33,693 nt of DNA from positions 1 to 33,693 of the forward strand of contig CAADGV010000036.1 in NCBI GenBank assembly GCA_900696645.1. Direction: 5' to 3'. Positions 9,875 to 28,537 of this stretch are shown here, piece by piece. Both the position numbers and the translations under genes were made by a program. This DNA comes from an uncultured Chlorobiota bacterium. Its GTDB lineage: Bacteria > Bacteroidota > Ignavibacteria > UBA10030 > UBA6906. Positions within the stretch are counted from its first letter, which is position 1. Each line of letters starts with the position of its first letter. Under the pieces are notes generated by a model that saw only the letters and a program-made list of their open reading frames with translations, had not been told where the DNA came from and ran no database searches.

Positions 9875-9904
9875 GTCCAAGCCCCGCATGTGCGGGGCTT
9901 GGAC
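9875..9904 (-). terminator. Strong hairpin terminator at the end of the sigma/DUF4097 unit
   Basis: Perfect 13-bp stem GTCCAAGCCCCGC / GCGGGGCTTGGAC (9875-9887 and 9892-9904) with a 4-nt loop, 21 nt past the stop of the last DUF4097 gene. On the minus strand only a short TTTC follows, so termination may depend mainly on the very stable stem. Confidence 0.7.
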
Positions 9905-9925: not shown

Positions 9926-11056
9926 TTATCCCTTCTTTAAGTACACATTCCCGTTAATCGTCTTGATCTTCACTTTGTGCTTGCCGCCGCCGATGGTTCC
10001 TGTCCCGTAAATGTATTTCCGCGGCGAGCCGTTGCGGTGTTCCCATTCCTTTGTCTCTTCTTTCTTCAGATCAAAATCACTGATGATGTTGTAGTCGCCT
10101 TCTTTGCCGCGCGTGTACGCAAGCGTGATATCGACATCCATCGAAAGCGAGGCGGGAACGGTCAGCGTTACATCACCCGACATTGACTCGATTTCAACGT
10201 CACGGTCGCCTTTTGTCGCGTCGCCGACCATTGTCACGCTGACATCTCCTCCCATTGTCGTTGCGGAGATGCGGCCATCAACGGCATCAATTTCGATATT
10301 TCCGCCCATCGTCTTTGCGCGGGCGTACTTGTTGGCTTTCCTGATATGAATATTCCCGCCCATCGTGTGAACGTCCGTTCCTTCGGGGGCGTCGTCGACA
10401 TTGATTTCACCCCCCATTGTTCTGATATGCACTTCATTCTTGATTCCTTCACCCGACCTGCCTGTCACATTCCGCTGAATCACCTTGCCTCCCATCGAAC
10501 TTGCTTTGACCGTTCCCGTCACGTCCTCAACAAGTACTTCGCCACCCATCGTCTTCACTTTACCGTCCACGTCGGAGTTTGTGAGGCGAACCTTTCCTCC
10601 CATTGTGGTGAGGTCGAGATCACCTTGCAGTTTCGTGAGCGTAAGCGCGCCGCCCATGGTCTTGCCCTCGATCGTTCCCTGGACATTCTCAATCGTATAG
10701 CTGCCGCCCATCGATTGCAGGTCAAGATTGAATTTCGTTGGCACATTGATCTCGAAATCAACATTCGTGTTGTAATTCCTTCTTCTTCCTTCATAATACG
10801 ATGAGATGCGAACCCCTCCTCCTTCTTCCACCACCTCTACTACACAGTTTTCAGCATCTCTGCCTTTTATCGTGCCGCTTACCTTGACGACATTCTTCTC
10901 CCAACCGGTGATCTTCAACGAGCCGCCCGTTTTGAGATCGACTTCCAGCTTCTTTCCGGGCGAGACGGTAAATTCTTTCTCGATGGTGTCGGGTTGAGAC
11001 GCCAATCCCAATAAGAGGAGAGCAAGAAAAGGGACAAAGACTTTGAGGCTTATCAT
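9926..11056 (-). CDS. DUF4097-type exported repeat protein with TMGG repeats
   Basis: The 376-residue protein has a signal peptide (about 1-20). Its central repeat region has nine short T/S-MGG steps, such as TMGGALT, TMGGKVR, TMGGEVL, TMGGEIN, TMGGNIH and TMGGDVS, plus one degenerate SMSGDVT, spaced about 20 residues apart. This is the pattern of DUF4097 (putative adhesin) proteins, predicted to fold as a beta-helix with one turn per repeat. The repeats end near residue 280 and are followed by a more mixed C-terminal part. ATG 11056 is preceded by AAGGAG. It lies 55 nt behind the DUF5916 gene and is the last gene of the sigma-factor unit. It is paralogous to the product of 13854-14987. Cellular role is unknown; a surface or periplasmic location is likely. 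Confidence 0.85.
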   Translation of the reverse strand: MISLKVFVPFLALLLLGLASQPDTIEKEFTVSPGKKLEVDLKTGGSLKITGWEKNVVKVSGTIKGRDAENCVVEVVEEGGGVRISSYYEGRRRNYNTNVDFEINVPTKFNLDLQSMGGSYTIENVQGTIEGKTMGGALTLTKLQGDLDLTTMGGKVRLTNSDVDGKVKTMGGEVLVEDVTGTVKASSMGGKVIQRNVTGRSGEGIKNEVHIRTMGGEINVDDAPEGTDVHTMGGNIHIRKANKYARAKTMGGNIEIDAVDGRISATTMGGDVSVTMVGDATKGDRDVEIESMSGDVTLTVPASLSMDVDITLAYTRGKEGDYNIISDFDLKKEETKEWEHRNGSPRKYIYGTGTIGGGKHKVKIKTINGNVYLKKG

Positions 11057-11111
11057 GGTGTGACTCCTTCTAATGAATATATGTTCAAACTCGAAATCCG
11101 TATTTCGACAA

Positions 11112-13772
11112 TCATGGATTTGCCCAGAAACTCAACTTGATCAAAAAGATATTATCCGGTTGCGAGCGGAAGAGATGCGACACATCGCGACCGAACCGGA
11201 AGTTGCCGGGATCTGAGTCATCGGTTCGTTGCTGTGTCCAGACAAAGTAAATGGTCGAGCCGGGCATGTATTCCCATCGCAACACCGCGCTGCCGCGCAG
11301 CGACTTGAAATTGAAATCGGGATTGGAAACCGTGAACGCTTGCGAAGGGCCGGCGCCATCGGGATCGACAACATACTCATCATCCTGTTTGGAAATTGTT
11401 GACGAGCCAACTCCGTATGTGCTGAATTCATACGATTTCGGACGGGCGAGTTCTTTCAGATTTTTGTACTCGCCGACGGAAATCAGCGGTTGGACGTACA
11501 TCTGCAGGCTCAGGTGCGGCGTGAAGGTCCAGTTCAAACGGATGCTTGCAACAACTTCACGCTGATTCAGTTCAGCGAAAATGTAGCGTCTTCCGAAGGT
11601 GTTTGTCGCTTCAACATCTGCAACACTTGTCACCCATTGAGCAGCGGTGTTGTACAAACGGATCGAAGGATTGAAACTGACGGAAATGTTCGGCGCCGGT
11701 TTATACTCAATGCCGAGGTACAGACTTCTGCTTGTGTTGGATTCGTACTTGTAGTTGTTGGTGTTGCCTTCGAGTCTGAAGACCCAGTCTTTTCTGTCGT
11801 CGGTAGATACATAGCCACCCAATTCGTATCCGGGCGGGTTTACGGTAAGCGGGCCGCCGCGTGTCCGCCGGTTGCTCATCGTTTCCGGATTGTAGGCAAA
11901 CCATGTTTGAATGCTGTAGTAGTTGGGGAATTGAATGTAGTTCCCGTTCCAGAATCCGCCCCAAATCTGATTTCCCTCAAAATCATAACTGCGGAAATGC
12001 GAAAAATTCATGGTGATGCGCCGGTACACGCTCGTCGGCTCCGTCCATTTGTAGCCGAGAACAAGATGCCCGTTGAGAATGTCATTCCGCCACATGAAAC
12101 CGAGGTCGTTGCTGTTGAACCTCGGATCAATGAATCCGAACGCCGCGTTAACGTAGAAGTTCCCCTTTTGTTTGTTCAGCGCAACGCGCCCCGCATATCC
12201 CCGCAGCGATGTTGCAGAACTGTCGACACTTACGTGACTTGCGTCGGGACGCTGGAAGTAATGTGAGGCGCTTCGCTGTAACGCAATCATGCGGGACTGA
12301 TTGCCTCGTACATGCGACATCCCTGTCCAGCCCGTAACCACCCAGACTTTGTCCTCGTCAAGGAACGTCCAGCCGTCGATGCCGAAGGTGAGAGAACTGC
12401 TGTTCAATTGATCCCTCATGCGGTTGTCGGAAAAACTCCGCGCTGCAATGCTTGAAATAAACCCGAGCCCCTGCCGTCCGCCGTCGAATTCCTTCTGCCC
12501 GCGGAAAATTCCGTAGTACGTCAATGGCTCAACTTCGTGGCTGAACCGGTGTCCTGCCGAATCGATATCTGCATACTCGCGCTTCGTCAACGCGTTGATG
12601 GAGCCGACGTTCCAACTGTCGCCCAACTTGCCCGTGAGTTTTGCCGCGCCGAGAATGTGTGTGCCCGAGGGAACGTCGGAGAAATCGATGTTCTCGGGAG
12701 TGGCGCCTTGCGGCGTTCGACCGACGCGCCGGCTGTAGAAGAAGCCCGGATTTCCCCAGTTGAATCCCCAGTTGTTGTTCGAGCCGCCGTATCCGAACTC
12801 GAAGATCGTCGAGCCTTCAATGAAGAACGGGCGTTTCTCATTAAAGAACGTCTCCACGTCGCTCAGGTTCACCACAGCAGGATCTACTTCCACTTGACCA
12901 AAATCGGGATTCACCGTTGCATCAACCGTCAGGTTGCTTCCGATGCCGAACTTGATATCGGCGCCCACACCGGGCGTGTAGCGCGAGCCGTTGTTAAACG
13001 GATCGTTGTGTGCACGGCGCGTGTACTCCGCTTTCGTGCTGACGTAGGGGAGAATCTCCAAGCGACGCGGCGGCTCGATATTTTCAAGCCCCACCAAATC
13101 GGCAAAGCGCGACACAAACCCGCTACCGTTCTTGGGCGTATAGACCAGGTACGCCTTTTCGTTCTTGCGGGATATTTCACGGATAAAATTGACACCCCAC
13201 ACTTGTCGTTCGCCGGCTCGAAAACGAAGTTGCGAAAACGGTATGCGCATTTCCAGCGACCATCCGTTATCATTGACTATTGTCTTTCCTTCCCACACGC
13301 CGTCCCACGTATCATCATCCCAATCATCGTTGTACAGAACGCCATCGTACAGCGTTCCGGCGGCGTTGAGTCCGAAATACACGCCGCTTCTGCGATCATA
13401 GTATGGGTCGAGATAGATGCCGAAGTCGTCGGAGCTGACATTCACGTCGCGCCGGGTCAACCGGGCTACTATGGAATCGGGGGCGCTGTCATACAACCGT
13501 GCGGCGACGTACAGCGCCGCATCATCGTACACTATATAGATTTCAGTCCGCTCCGTTGACGGCTTCCCTTCATCGGGCTCGCGTTGGTGGAGTGATGTCA
13601 CTGCCGGCTGCAGTTGCTGCCACACAGGCTCCGAGAGAATACCGTCGATCGTAATGGCGTCCGCAGTTCTGACAGCTTGAACCGTCTTCTGAGTATTTGC
13701 AGGAACGTTCTCGTTGGCTCTTGCGTGCGTGAGCATCGCAAGACAGGCAATGGCACAGAAAGCGGAACGCAT
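11112..13772 (-). CDS. DUF5916 outer-membrane protein with N-terminal CBM9-like domain
   Basis: The 886-residue protein has a signal peptide (MRSAFCAIACLAMLTHARA). A carbohydrate-binding-module-9-like domain follows, with ITIDGILSEPVWQQL near the start and YDDAALYVAARLYD and SLEMRIPFSQLRF further on. The remainder is a long strand-rich region with many aromatic residues, and includes VNPDFGQVEVDP and FFNEKRPFFIEGS, hallmarks of DUF5916. The family is expected to form a large outer-membrane barrel; its substrate is not known. I chose ATG 13772 over the upstream ATG 13838 because it has GGAG at proper spacing and places the signal peptide at the N terminus. The gene lies between two DUF4097 genes in the same direction, suggesting a shared envelope task. 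Confidence 0.88.
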   Translation of the reverse strand: MRSAFCAIACLAMLTHARANENVPANTQKTVQAVRTADAITIDGILSEPVWQQLQPAVTSLHQREPDEGKPSTERTEIYIVYDDAALYVAARLYDSAPDSIVARLTRRDVNVSSDDFGIYLDPYYDRRSGVYFGLNAAGTLYDGVLYNDDWDDDTWDGVWEGKTIVNDNGWSLEMRIPFSQLRFRAGERQVWGVNFIREISRKNEKAYLVYTPKNGSGFVSRFADLVGLENIEPPRRLEILPYVSTKAEYTRRAHNDPFNNGSRYTPGVGADIKFGIGSNLTVDATVNPDFGQVEVDPAVVNLSDVETFFNEKRPFFIEGSTIFEFGYGGSNNNWGFNWGNPGFFYSRRVGRTPQGATPENIDFSDVPSGTHILGAAKLTGKLGDSWNVGSINALTKREYADIDSAGHRFSHEVEPLTYYGIFRGQKEFDGGRQGLGFISSIAARSFSDNRMRDQLNSSSLTFGIDGWTFLDEDKVWVVTGWTGMSHVRGNQSRMIALQRSASHYFQRPDASHVSVDSSATSLRGYAGRVALNKQKGNFYVNAAFGFIDPRFNSNDLGFMWRNDILNGHLVLGYKWTEPTSVYRRITMNFSHFRSYDFEGNQIWGGFWNGNYIQFPNYYSIQTWFAYNPETMSNRRTRGGPLTVNPPGYELGGYVSTDDRKDWVFRLEGNTNNYKYESNTSRSLYLGIEYKPAPNISVSFNPSIRLYNTAAQWVTSVADVEATNTFGRRYIFAELNQREVVASIRLNWTFTPHLSLQMYVQPLISVGEYKNLKELARPKSYEFSTYGVGSSTISKQDDEYVVDPDGAGPSQAFTVSNPDFNFKSLRGSAVLRWEYMPGSTIYFVWTQQRTDDSDPGNFRFGRDVSHLFRSQPDNIFLIKLSFWANP

Positions 13773-13853
13773 GATCAATCTCCTGCTATATCTGTAGGAT
13801 TGTTTCGGATTGTGTGTATGATTAGATGACGTGAGCATCGCGACGGTTGACAG

Positions 13854-14987
13854 TTATTTCTTGAGTTTGCGGATTTCAATATCCGAGTTTACAGTTTCGA
13901 GAGAAATCGTTTCGCCGCCGCCGTTCAGCACATACGTTGCCTCAATCTCACGATCATCTTCGCTGCGGAGAGAAGATTCTTCTTTGAAATCGGAGCGGAT
14001 GGTGTAGATGTCTTTCTTCGAACGCCACCCGCCTCGAATACGAATCCGGGCCGTGATTGTTGCTTTTACGTTTTCCGGAACGAGCAGAGTAATCGTGCCG
14101 GAAGCGGAAACGAGCCTGCTTTTCCCTTTGCCGCTCGGGACCAATTCGGCGCGAATATCGCCGCCGGAGGTTTTTGCATCGACAGACCCGGCAATATTTA
14201 TCAGCTTAATGTTCCCGCCGCTTGTTGTGGCTTTGATGTTGCCAATACCTCCGCTCAGTTCAACATCGCCGCCGGAGGTTGAGAGCGTTACGTGTCCGCT
14301 GACTTTTCCGACTATTACATTGCCTCCTGCGGTGGATGCGCTGGCATCGCCACTTACATCACCGACAATGATATCTCCGCCTGCTGTCCGCGCCCGCATT
14401 GACTTGCCGACGTTGCCGATGCGGATATCTCCGCCTGCCGTTCGGACATCCACTTCATCCGACGACGAGGCAACCTCAATGTCACCGCCGGACGTACTGA
14501 TTGAACTCTTGCCCGTAATCTTGCCCGTCCGAACATCGCCGCCCGATGTCCGCAAATCAATGGTTCCGTCAACATCATCCGTTCTGATGTTGCCTGCCGA
14601 CGTTTCGCAGGAAATGGAGCCGTTGATTCTTCCTCTGACGGAAATATCGCCCAGCGACGTTTTGATGTTGAGATTGAATTGGGAGGGAACGGTAATCGTA
14701 AACGTTCCGCCATCCGACCAGCCCCCGCGGTCAGTGATGCGAATCGTGTTCCCTTGCTGCGTCATGCGAACGTCGCTATCGTCATCGTCGTAGCCGTTGA
14801 CGTTCACCGTCACTTCGTTCTTCTCCCACGTCGAGATCCGGATGTCGCCGCCATCGACCGATACGTCGAGCATGCCGCCTTTGGTCACAGTGAACGATTG
14901 CGTTCCCTTCTGTCGTTGAGCGACGGAAGAAGAGAACAACGCGATAGTAGTAGCCAACAGAAGAAATGCCGTTGTGAAATGTTTCAT
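13854..14987 (-). CDS. DUF4097-type exported repeat protein with TSGG/TAGG repeats
   Basis: The 377-residue protein has a signal peptide (about 1-23, ending SSSVAQ). About ten turns marked by T[SA]GG[DN][IV] follow, such as TSGGDV, TSGGDI, TAGGDI, TAGGNV and TSGGNI, each 18-20 residues apart, then a last SASGTI. The layout matches DUF4097 beta-helix proteins and the paralogue at 9926. Here the step residue is Ser or Ala, whereas the paralogue uses Met. Its ATG overlaps the stop of the anti-sigma gene (ATGA), with GAGGAGG inside the end of that gene, so translation is probably coupled. It is the first exported product behind the sigma/anti-sigma pair. Molecular function unknown. Confidence 0.87.
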   Translation of the reverse strand: MKHFTTAFLLLATTIALFSSSVAQRQKGTQSFTVTKGGMLDVSVDGGDIRISTWEKNEVTVNVNGYDDDDSDVRMTQQGNTIRITDRGGWSDGGTFTITVPSQFNLNIKTSLGDISVRGRINGSISCETSAGNIRTDDVDGTIDLRTSGGDVRTGKITGKSSISTSGGDIEVASSSDEVDVRTAGGDIRIGNVGKSMRARTAGGDIIVGDVSGDASASTAGGNVIVGKVSGHVTLSTSGGDVELSGGIGNIKATTSGGNIKLINIAGSVDAKTSGGDIRAELVPSGKGKSRLVSASGTITLLVPENVKATITARIRIRGGWRSKKDIYTIRSDFKEESSLRSEDDREIEATYVLNGGGETISLETVNSDIEIRKLKK

Positions 14988-15937
14988 TGCTGTTTAACCT
15001 CCTCAAGAACTGCTTGTGCGCGAATGCGAACGTAGCTGTTTTCGTCTGATTGCATTCGTTGTTTGAGTACATTCAGTAGCTCGGCATCGGGACTCTGCAT
15101 GCGTGCGGAGTCGAGAGCGTTGATCGCGGCGATACGCATTGCCGGATTGGCATCCTGCATCAACACATGCAGATATGTTTGCTTGATTTCCTCGTCGAAC
15201 GGAAAGCTCCCCAGGGTTTTCAGCGCCTCCCGGCGAACCGCCGGATTGTTGTCGGTACGGGCGGCGAGAATCAGTGCTGCTTTCACTTCACGATCGGGCT
15301 GCTTCAAATGTTCGGTTTGTGTTGAGAGGGCGTTGACGGAACGGAGCCGAATGCCCGGATTCTGATCATTGACCAAGGCGTGAGCGAGTACCTTCTGCAC
15401 TCGTTCGTCGTTGATGCTTCCTTTGACATGAACGGGGGAGGTCGCATCGAATGTGAACTCGATCATTCCGTCCTGCGCATCAGAATCAAGAAACCGGATG
15501 TTGGAAATACGCGGCTCACCTTCGAGCGCAGACGAGAAATGCCGGTCTGTAACTTGCGGAGTTTCCTGCACGGAAGGAAGGAACATCCGCCCGACGAGAA
15601 TACCTGCCGCAAGCATCGTCATTCCGCCCAGGGCTATCTTGTAGTCCGGCAAAACGTAGTCTGATGCAAAATCTGCCAGTCGATCCCACAGCGACGGGCG
15701 TGTTCGCTCAGCCCGTATCGCTGCACGCAGATTCTGCCGCGCCTCGTTCAACAGCGCATCATCAGGGGCGAACGAGCCGGCTCGGGCGAGAGAGGCGTGC
15801 AGCTTCTGCCATTCTTCCAACTCAATCTGGCATTCGCGGCATTGCTGAAGATGCATGTCGAGACGGGATTTCTCTTCAGAATTGAGTTCTTCGTACAGCG
15901 AAAGCAGAAGCCCTTCCCTGTATTGCTGATGGTTCAT
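14984..15937 (-). CDS. Anti-sigma factor-like membrane protein with zinc finger and HEAT repeats
   Basis: The 317-residue protein carries an N-terminal HxxxCxxC zinc-binding motif (H29, C33, C36), as in ZAS/zf-HC2 anti-sigma factors. One transmembrane segment follows (about 101-120), then a C-terminal region (about 180-317) of HEAT-like helical repeats with recurring NPAVRREAL, NPAMRIAAI and NSYVRIRAQ units. The topology implies a cytoplasmic sigma-binding head and an extracytoplasmic HEAT sensor or scaffold. The gene starts 24 nt after the ECF sigma gene and overlaps the next DUF4097 gene by 4 nt. The HEAT extension is larger than in a typical anti-sigma protein and may sense a protein partner; that is inference. 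Confidence 0.87.
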   Translation of the reverse strand: MNHQQYREGLLLSLYEELNSEEKSRLDMHLQQCRECQIELEEWQKLHASLARAGSFAPDDALLNEARQNLRAAIRAERTRPSLWDRLADFASDYVLPDYKIALGGMTMLAAGILVGRMFLPSVQETPQVTDRHFSSALEGEPRISNIRFLDSDAQDGMIEFTFDATSPVHVKGSINDERVQKVLAHALVNDQNPGIRLRSVNALSTQTEHLKQPDREVKAALILAARTDNNPAVRREALKTLGSFPFDEEIKQTYLHVLMQDANPAMRIAAINALDSARMQSPDAELLNVLKQRMQSDENSYVRIRAQAVLEEVKQQ

Positions 15938-15961
15938 TGTTGTTCTCCTTCCATCGTCACG

Positions 15962-16549
15962 TTAATCATACACAACACGCAGTCTCTTGCGCAACTGTTG
16001 CGTTGCGAGAAACAAATACCGCTTCACCGTTCCTTCCGTACACTTCATCATGTCCGCAATCTCACGCAGTTTGTACCCGTCGAAATGTTTCAGCGTGAAT
16101 ACGAGTCGCTGTTTTGCCGAAAGTGATTCCAGCGCGTGCTGCACATGCCCTCTGATTTCCGAATCCACCGAGTGTTGATCTGTCGGCTCGTCGTTACTGT
16201 GCAGTTCCGCGCCATGTGTCTCCGATTCGCTGTCGTCGTCTCCGTCGATCGGCACGTGAACAAAATTCTTCTTGCGCGAGCGATGTGTCAGGCATACATT
16301 CACCGTTATTCTGTGCAGCCACGTGGGAAATTCACTCTTCATTTCGAAATGCTTCAAGCCGCGATATACTCTGATGAACACTTCCTGATAGATATCCTTT
16401 GCGTCTTCTGAACTTGTCACGTACCGGGCGGCAATGGCCAACACTTGCTTGTCGTGCTTGTGTACAAGCTGTTCGAATGCTGTTATGCTGCCTGATTTGG
16501 CTTGCAGAACAAGTTCCTCGTCTTCGGCATTGATCATGCGGGAATGCAT
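15962..16549 (-). CDS. ECF-type RNA polymerase sigma factor (sigma-70 family)
   Basis: The 195-residue protein has a region-2 domain (about 22-90, with SSEDAKDIYQEVFIRVYRGL and FPTWLHRITVN). A polar, acidic linker (about 100-130) follows, then a region-4 helix-turn-helix (LSAKQRLVFTLKHFDGYKL, then EIADMMKCTEGTVKRYL). There is no region 1 or 3, as in ECF sigma factors. It is paired with the adjacent zinc-finger anti-sigma gene, and the three exported proteins downstream are the obvious first candidates for its regulon. ATG 16549 or ATG 16537 could be the start; neither has an ideal ribosome site. Confidence 0.93.
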   Translation of the reverse strand: MHSRMINAEDEELVLQAKSGSITAFEQLVHKHDKQVLAIAARYVTSSEDAKDIYQEVFIRVYRGLKHFEMKSEFPTWLHRITVNVCLTHRSRKKNFVHVPIDGDDDSESETHGAELHSNDEPTDQHSVDSEIRGHVQHALESLSAKQRLVFTLKHFDGYKLREIADMMKCTEGTVKRYLFLATQQLRKRLRVVYD

Positions 16550-16904
16550 TTCCGTGTACAGGTAATTAGACTTGTTGATGGCAAAATGGTTGTAGCGATT
16601 GAGTATTTAAGGGAGAGAACGGGGAATCTAACCTCTAAAACGCCCGAAAAAGGGGAAAGTTGCGTTTCGTCGGGTTTTCATGGCGGAGAACCTGAAATCC
16701 AGTACAGAAAGCAGAACACAGATAGACACAAATGCAACAGATCGTCGCAGATTGAGAGGTACGATCTCTATGTGCCCTCGACTCACCTGCACTTGGTCAT
16801 CACCATCCGGGTGAAATCGAAGTACAAACGATGGACTTTCACCCATATCCACCATTACGCTCTTCTTCTTTATGTCTGTGAGAATCTGTAGTTTCTGTGT
16901 CGTC

Positions 16905-28294: not shown

Positions 28295-28537
28295 ATGACA
28301 TCTTCCGACGTACGTGAGGAGTTTCATAAGTTGATTGATACTGTCCAAGACGATAGAATGTTGAAGGATTTCTACGATGCGTTGAATGATGCACGCGGCC
28401 AGAAACGTGACATCTTGGATGATCTTTCAGTTGACCAGCGGGAACGTTTGGAGCAGTCACTCTCCCAGGCAGCTCGTGGCACAACCATTTCTCATGAACA
28501 AATGAAGTCCAAGATTGAAGAATGGCGTACAAAATAA
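28295..28537 (+). CDS. Putative type II antitoxin
   Basis: The 80-residue, highly charged, mainly helical protein (TSSDVREEFHKLIDTVQDD at the start) lies directly upstream of a ParE/RelE-type toxin and overlaps it by 16 nt. ATG 28295 is selected because AGGAG stands 8 nt before it; the open frame extends further upstream without a ribosome site. Antitoxins of this kind neutralise the toxin and usually repress their own promoter. No classical DNA-binding motif is obvious, so the family is not assigned and the role rests on context, size and charge. The C-terminal part (HEQMKSKIEEWRTK) would be the expected toxin-binding region. Confidence 0.78.
   Translation: MTSSDVREEFHKLIDTVQDDRMLKDFYDALNDARGQKRDILDDLSVDQRERLEQSLSQAARGTTISHEQMKSKIEEWRTK

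Follow-up and report, generated by a model that had tools for sequence, protein, structure and literature searches.

On the minus strand of the window, i.e., the whole stretch of 33,693 nucleotides that was analyzed, five closely spaced genes raise the question of what a sigma factor, a membrane protein with HEAT repeats and three proteins of the Toastrack and DUF5916 families have to do with each other. A sequence-only reading had regarded them as one operon and as a possible envelope regulon.

The operon and its products

The ORF coordinates (Table 1) agree with the five genes and the spacing described before. The sigma and anti-sigma genes are separated by 24 nt, the anti-sigma gene overlaps the gene of the first Toastrack protein (TRa) by 4 nt, and gaps of 81 nt and 55 nt precede the DUF5916 gene and the second Toastrack gene, respectively. 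The 81 nt were counted from the likely DUF5916 start at 13772; the longest ORF begins at 13838. For the sigma gene, two start codons come into question, ATG at 16549 and ATG at 16537, of which the latter may be the real one. The strong hairpin reported at the end of the operon was also recovered (-31.7 kcal/mol for the region, z-score -5.1). Its 3′ tail is just UUUCGACU, a short and weak U-tract, so that it resembles an intrinsic terminator only poorly; it was absent from the list of the terminator scan. Two long plus-strand ORFs (14008-14793 and 10104-10804) lie antisense over the Toastrack repeats. In relatives, antisense ORFs of this sort led simple gene callers astray, and real Toastrack genes escaped detection.

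Table 1. Positions of the operon genes and associated elements in the window
Feature	Position	Strand	Evidence
ECF sigma factor, 195 aa	15962-16549	-	Pfam Sigma70_r2 and Sigma70_r4_2 above cut-off
Transmembrane anti-sigma factor with HEAT repeats	14984-15937	-	Pfam HEAT_2, 61 bits
First Toastrack protein (TRa)	13854-14987	-	AlphaFold2 fold, LiaG-model match, DUF4097 matches of orthologs
DUF5916 protein	11112-13772	-	Pfam DUF5916, 230 bits
Second Toastrack (DUF4097) protein	9926-11056	-	Pfam DUF4097, 36 bits; hydrophobic N-terminus
GC-rich 13-bp hairpin closing the operon	9875-9904	-	Folding energy, z-score
Predicted ECF promoter CTACAACCATTTTGccatcaacAAGTCTAATT	16564-16595	-	Weight-matrix score 32.6

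The proposed sigma/anti-sigma pair was supported by Pfam, which assigned sigma70 regions 2 and 4 to the first product and, to its neighbor, HEAT_2 and a slightly sub-threshold zf-HC2 domain. The sigma factor matched Sigma70_r2 with 63.8 bits and Sigma70_r4_2 with 53.6 bits, while a Pfam match to region 3 was not obtained. With regions 2 and 4 and without region 1 or 3, the protein of 195 aa is an ECF sigma factor. Its solved relatives are of the RpoE/SigH/SigW type, and in nearly all homologous loci the anti-sigma gene adjoins the sigma gene.

The zf-HC2 match of the anti-sigma factor (20.8 bits) falls just under the Pfam cut-off of 22.2, and 20 of 27 homologs revealed such a match at E <= 1e-3. 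The matches of the homologs and the modelled helices at residues 4-79 identify an anti-sigma domain (ASD) of class I. In the AlphaFold2 model (pLDDT 82.7), residues 97-119 form a transmembrane helix behind this helical domain; after a disordered stretch, residues 145-174 make up a beta-hairpin and residues 178-316 four HEAT repeats. The relative placement of these parts is unreliable due to the low pTM of 0.54. A hydrophobic, transmembrane-like segment is present in 33 of 34 homologs, and the model predicts a single transmembrane helix behind the anti-sigma domain, as in class I. Foldseek and VIA-align searches with the model yielded HEAT/ARM-type matches only; the anti-sigma domain was not represented among them. 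The protein thus resembles class I anti-sigma factors as they are described in PMC7406223, in that an N-terminal ASD is encoded next to the cognate ECF gene, the protein is membrane-bound and the HxxxCxxC motif is mixed within the group. What separates it from them is the HEAT-repeat outer domain, which the available passages of that paper do not mention. In the open literature searched, no paper on HEAT-repeat anti-sigma factors was found.

His29, Cys33 and Cys36 of the anti-sigma factor form an HxxxCxxC motif, and the protein shows a weak match to RsrA. It could therefore be a zinc/redox switch in which the motif senses oxidation, as in RsrA. However, only 18 of 34 homologs have kept all three ligands, though operon and promoter were kept, which speaks against such a sensor. 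Moreover, the occurrence of zinc and non-zinc groups side by side among class I anti-sigma factors points to a structural role of the motif (PMC7406223). A redox switch is therefore very improbable. The genome of the window contains on contig C18 (L074:2575-7889) a second operon with a sigma factor and a zf-HC2 anti-sigma factor, in which the HEAT domain resides on a separate HEAT/TPR protein; the genes behind it encode a double-PDZ protein and a protein with a Por secretion tail.

Both Toastrack proteins had been addressed as DUF4097 members. For TRa, this designation was right with respect to the fold but not with respect to Pfam, which gave no match in this genome. TRa matched the LiaG model with 52 bits (E 5e-14), far under the 285-bit cut-off of this model, and 15 of 26 TRa orthologs matched DUF4097. 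The AlphaFold2 model is a beta-helix (pLDDT 90, pTM 0.84), for which Foldseek listed 4qrk as best match (E 3.8e-6), followed by 3pet and 4opw (E up to 3.5e-4), at TM-scores of only 0.16-0.27 that give support at the family level and do not indicate a close relation. 4QRK and 4OPW are the structures cited for Toastrack in PMC11237479. At family level, the TRa model thus has the Toastrack fold, a beta-helix of the 4QRK/4OPW type. The N-terminal hydrophobic segment ends with SVA-Q, and from this segment and the model TRa is predicted to be an exported beta-helix protein. The second Toastrack protein is a DUF4097 member by Pfam (36 bits, cut-off 22.9) and, with its hydrophobic N-terminus, is likewise predicted to be exported.

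The DUF5916 protein by far exceeded the gathering score of its family (230 versus 22.6 bits). A CBM9-like domain at its N-terminus is weak (CBM9_1, 21.4 bits, under its cut-off). No solved relative was detected by sequence, and the open-access literature searched (subscription journals were not covered) does not mention DUF5916. The protein is a putative outer-membrane barrel.

Conservation of the gene set

Of 296 genomes of the phylum, 52 contained a homolog of the anti-sigma factor (E <= 1e-3), approximately 37 matches being strong. Named relatives in a GTDB-based collection are almost all Ignavibacteriae, Ignavibacteria or Bacteroidetes, and two are labelled Acidobacteria. In all 66 loci with downstream sequence, a Toastrack gene lies directly 3′ of the HEAT anti-sigma gene, and a sigma gene precedes this pair nearly always. 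Two of the 66 Toastrack genes had been missed by the ORF caller and were recovered with tblastn; a few of the loci stem from the same genome via two collections (e.g., L036 and L079). Judged by this adjacency, the arrangement is far beyond chance. The 4-nt overlap of the anti-sigma stop with the Toastrack start recurs in many loci.

The rest of the operon is more variable. The search for the gene neighborhood in relatives, by which the sequence-only reading had proposed to be judged, disclosed the exact five-gene order in L035, L036/L079, L075, L083 and L102, and the same five genes with the last two swapped in L054 and L056. The absence of the gene set from relatives, by which that reading would have been refuted, was thus not observed. 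Loci of family f5 possess two Toastrack genes and lack DUF5916 in the operon, and in L037:5326-9906 the genes between Toastrack and DUF5916 encode two serine hydrolases of the beta-lactamase family as well as a C69 peptidase. In genome G062 (L249:2331-4754), a sigma gene, a gene for a 172-aa protein and a Toastrack gene stand in a row without HEAT repeats, possibly a paralogous cassette.

TRa had been counted among the outputs of the sigma factor. It is indeed encoded in the operon of the sigma factor, but is probably more than an output, since it is present in the core without exception (66/66). TRa may thus be assigned to the invariant regulatory core, while DUF5916 and the second Toastrack protein are optional or unlinked outputs. 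What emerges from the comparison is a conserved core of three genes, with one promoter and one set of recurrent target families.

A common promoter within and outside the operon

To the upstream regions of 54 non-redundant sigma genes, dyad counting was applied, by which CAACC-N17-GTCT and its neighbors were detected in up to 20 sequences, compared to 5-8 shuffled ones. A two-block weight matrix revealed an ECF-type promoter, CCACAACCTTTT-N11/12-RGTCTAA, in 50 of the 54 regions, with scores of 17-36 versus a maximum of 11.7 in shuffles. The promoter of the window, whose score likewise lies far above this null maximum, is the sole minus-strand site above 12 in the 33.7 kb. The distance from the end of its GTCTAA is 16 nt to the ATG at 16549 and 28 nt to the other possible start, 16537. 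A weak plus-strand site (28479-28514, score 18.4) was rejected as a chance match with an unusual spacer, approximately 460 nt away from the next gene. A scan for sigma-70 promoters gave nothing over shuffle level. Within the window, a second promoter was found neither before DUF5916 nor before the second Toastrack gene; L038 and L094 carry a second copy directly before DUF5916, inside the operon. L068-L070, which are more distantly related, have only a weak motif or none. Upstream of the sigma genes of L067, L068 and L070, the -35 block is TGCAAACC and not CCACAACC, which suggests a drifted promoter in distant families. The site in front of the sigma gene and the adjacent anti-sigma gene fit an autoregulated ECF gene, the autoregulation being deduced from the site.

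As the matrix had been trained solely on sigma upstream regions, other genes provided an independent test. At a threshold of at least 17 (99.9th percentile of shuffles, 16.7), 8 of 28 unlinked DUF4097 genes had a site in genomes with a HEAT anti-sigma factor, but none of 21 in genomes without it (Fisher p 0.007). For unlinked DUF5916 genes the numbers were 6 of 25 versus 1 of 24 (Fisher p 0.098), a contrast that is weak if taken alone. The single exception stems from genome G004, in which contig C22 harbors an apparent cassette remnant (L247:5559-6535) consisting of the promoter, a truncated sigma gene, the C-terminal half of a Toastrack gene and DUF5916, without an anti-sigma gene. Part of the cassette seems to have been lost here by deletion, though a collapse of the assembly is also conceivable.

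A strict promoter pattern matched 49 times in the 28 genomes bearing the system, 20 times at the sigma gene and 29 times elsewhere. Ten of the latter sites precede DUF5916 genes by 17-151 nt, six are located upstream of DUF4097 genes and one upstream of a DUF2807 gene. Hence, Toastrack or DUF5916 genes followed 17 of 29 sites of the true pattern but none of 30 sites of the reversed pattern in the same genomes, with somewhat fewer independent events than these counts, because the 28 genomes include congeners (G078/G172, G031/G120). The raw number of matches, compared to the reversed pattern, was dropped as a test since, owing to the AT-richness of the pattern, no clear excess was obtained over 100 genomes of the class; where the sites lie with respect to genes was examined in its place. 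In the genome of the window, the only other clear site is located 46 nt upstream of an unlinked DUF4097 gene on contig C45. The majority of the unlinked DUF4097 and DUF5916 paralogs of bearing genomes have no site and the regulon therefore takes in a subset only; the other DUF5916 gene of the window's genome (contig C5), which is without a site, is probably outside this regulon. In G220, the promoter occurs twice upstream of MacB/FtsX-type permease genes (L269:343-3254, L270:11-2443), one of which stands behind a gene for a PadR-type regulator. These MacB-like permeases, met in one genome, are a weak hint to membrane-active compounds as the signal.

Operons may be maintained for reasons that have nothing to do with a common regulatory circuit, and the locus might on this ground be an ordinary gene neighborhood devoid of regulatory meaning. 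The recurrence of the same promoter at unlinked Toastrack and DUF5916 genes (17/29 versus 0/30 in the control) makes this scarcely credible. It also supports the earlier suggestion that Toastrack and DUF5916 proteins are under the joint control of one regulon. As judged from these sites, the ECF regulon very probably regulates itself and has Toastrack and DUF5916 proteins as its recurrent outputs.

DUF5916 is large, exported and probably a barrel, and it belongs to this regulon and in many cases to the operon itself. This also recalls cell-surface signaling of the FecA/FecR type, in which DUF5916 would be an outer-membrane transducer contacting the anti-sigma factor. However, in many loci (family f5) DUF5916 lies outside the operon downstream of its own promoter copy and thus behaves as an output. 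Furthermore, neither a TonB plug nor an STN domain was found, and by Pfam none of the five proteins contains a Plug, TonB-receptor, STN or FecR domain. Signaling of this type is thus unlikely. Taken as a whole, the locus is with good confidence an autoregulated regulon of an ECF sigma factor and a membrane anti-sigma factor, of the envelope-response type and encountered mainly in Ignavibacteria-related Bacteroidota.

A possible sensing complex and its relation to known systems

The sigma factor of the operon presumably reads the promoter described above, which would drive its own operon as well as unlinked Toastrack and DUF5916 genes. By its cytoplasmic anti-sigma domain, the anti-sigma factor would hold the sigma factor at the inner membrane, and it would project the beta-hairpin and the four HEAT repeats outward, so that the HEAT domain may face the periplasm. 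The invariant TRa is a putative periplasmic partner of this domain, its place beside the anti-sigma factor being comparable to that of RseB beside RseA, and the pair may report the state of the envelope. Loss of contact or proteolysis would free the sigma factor and result in more Toastrack and DUF5916 proteins. Tentatively, the HEAT outer domain and the exported Toastrack protein may thus constitute a periplasmic sensing complex of a kind not described before, which would control the ECF sigma factor and homeostatically tune how much Toastrack and DUF5916 protein the envelope contains.

On the other hand, the HEAT domain could sense the envelope signal directly, in which case TRa would be the first output gene without a regulatory role. 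TRa is predicted to be transcribed from the promoter of the sigma factor, and other Toastrack genes behind such a promoter resemble plain outputs. However, TRa is the sole downstream gene that is never parted from the anti-sigma gene (66/66), often with the 4-nt overlap, while the other outputs vary. Direct sensing by the HEAT domain without TRa is therefore regarded as less likely than not.

In E. coli, the rpoE-rseA-rseB-rseC genes encode the sigma E envelope stress system, an autoregulated operon with envelope proteins as outputs. The operon studied here has in common with it, as deduced from sequence, that an ECF sigma factor, a transmembrane anti-sigma factor and an exported protein are encoded in this order. 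By contrast, the outer part of the anti-sigma factor consists of a beta-hairpin and HEAT repeats, the third gene encodes a Toastrack beta-helix, in which Pfam did not detect an RseB-type domain, the regulon comprises Toastrack and DUF5916 proteins, and the promoter is CAACCTTTT/GTCTAA. The unit may thus work like sigma E/RseA/RseB but, having another outer domain, another regulon and no RseB domain, is not a member of this system.

With the Lia/PSP systems (LiaG, LiaF), the operon shares a Toastrack protein that is co-encoded with a regulator and has a probable envelope role (PMC11237479). The authors of that study also noted Toastrack neighborhoods with an operonically linked sigma factor, and the general pairing is therefore not wholly new. 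PspA, PspC, LiaI/LiaF-TM and LiaRS were not found by Pfam in the operon and three flanking genes. Unlike the domain in PMC11237479, which is predicted to be intracellular, the Toastrack proteins of this operon have N-terminal export signals.

The Toastrack context is thus apparently exported instead of cytoplasmic. Furthermore, a HEAT-repeat outer domain on an anti-sigma factor occurs here in a phylum in which the classical partners are reported to be rare; according to PMC7406223, class I anti-sigma partners were found for only 6% of Bacteroidetes ECFs. DUF5916 and DUF4097 are present in 80 and 67 of 100 sampled genomes of the class, respectively, yet the role of both is unsettled here. If the two families come under a single ECF sigma factor with a defined promoter, they gain a common regulatory context, and their role becomes a testable question.
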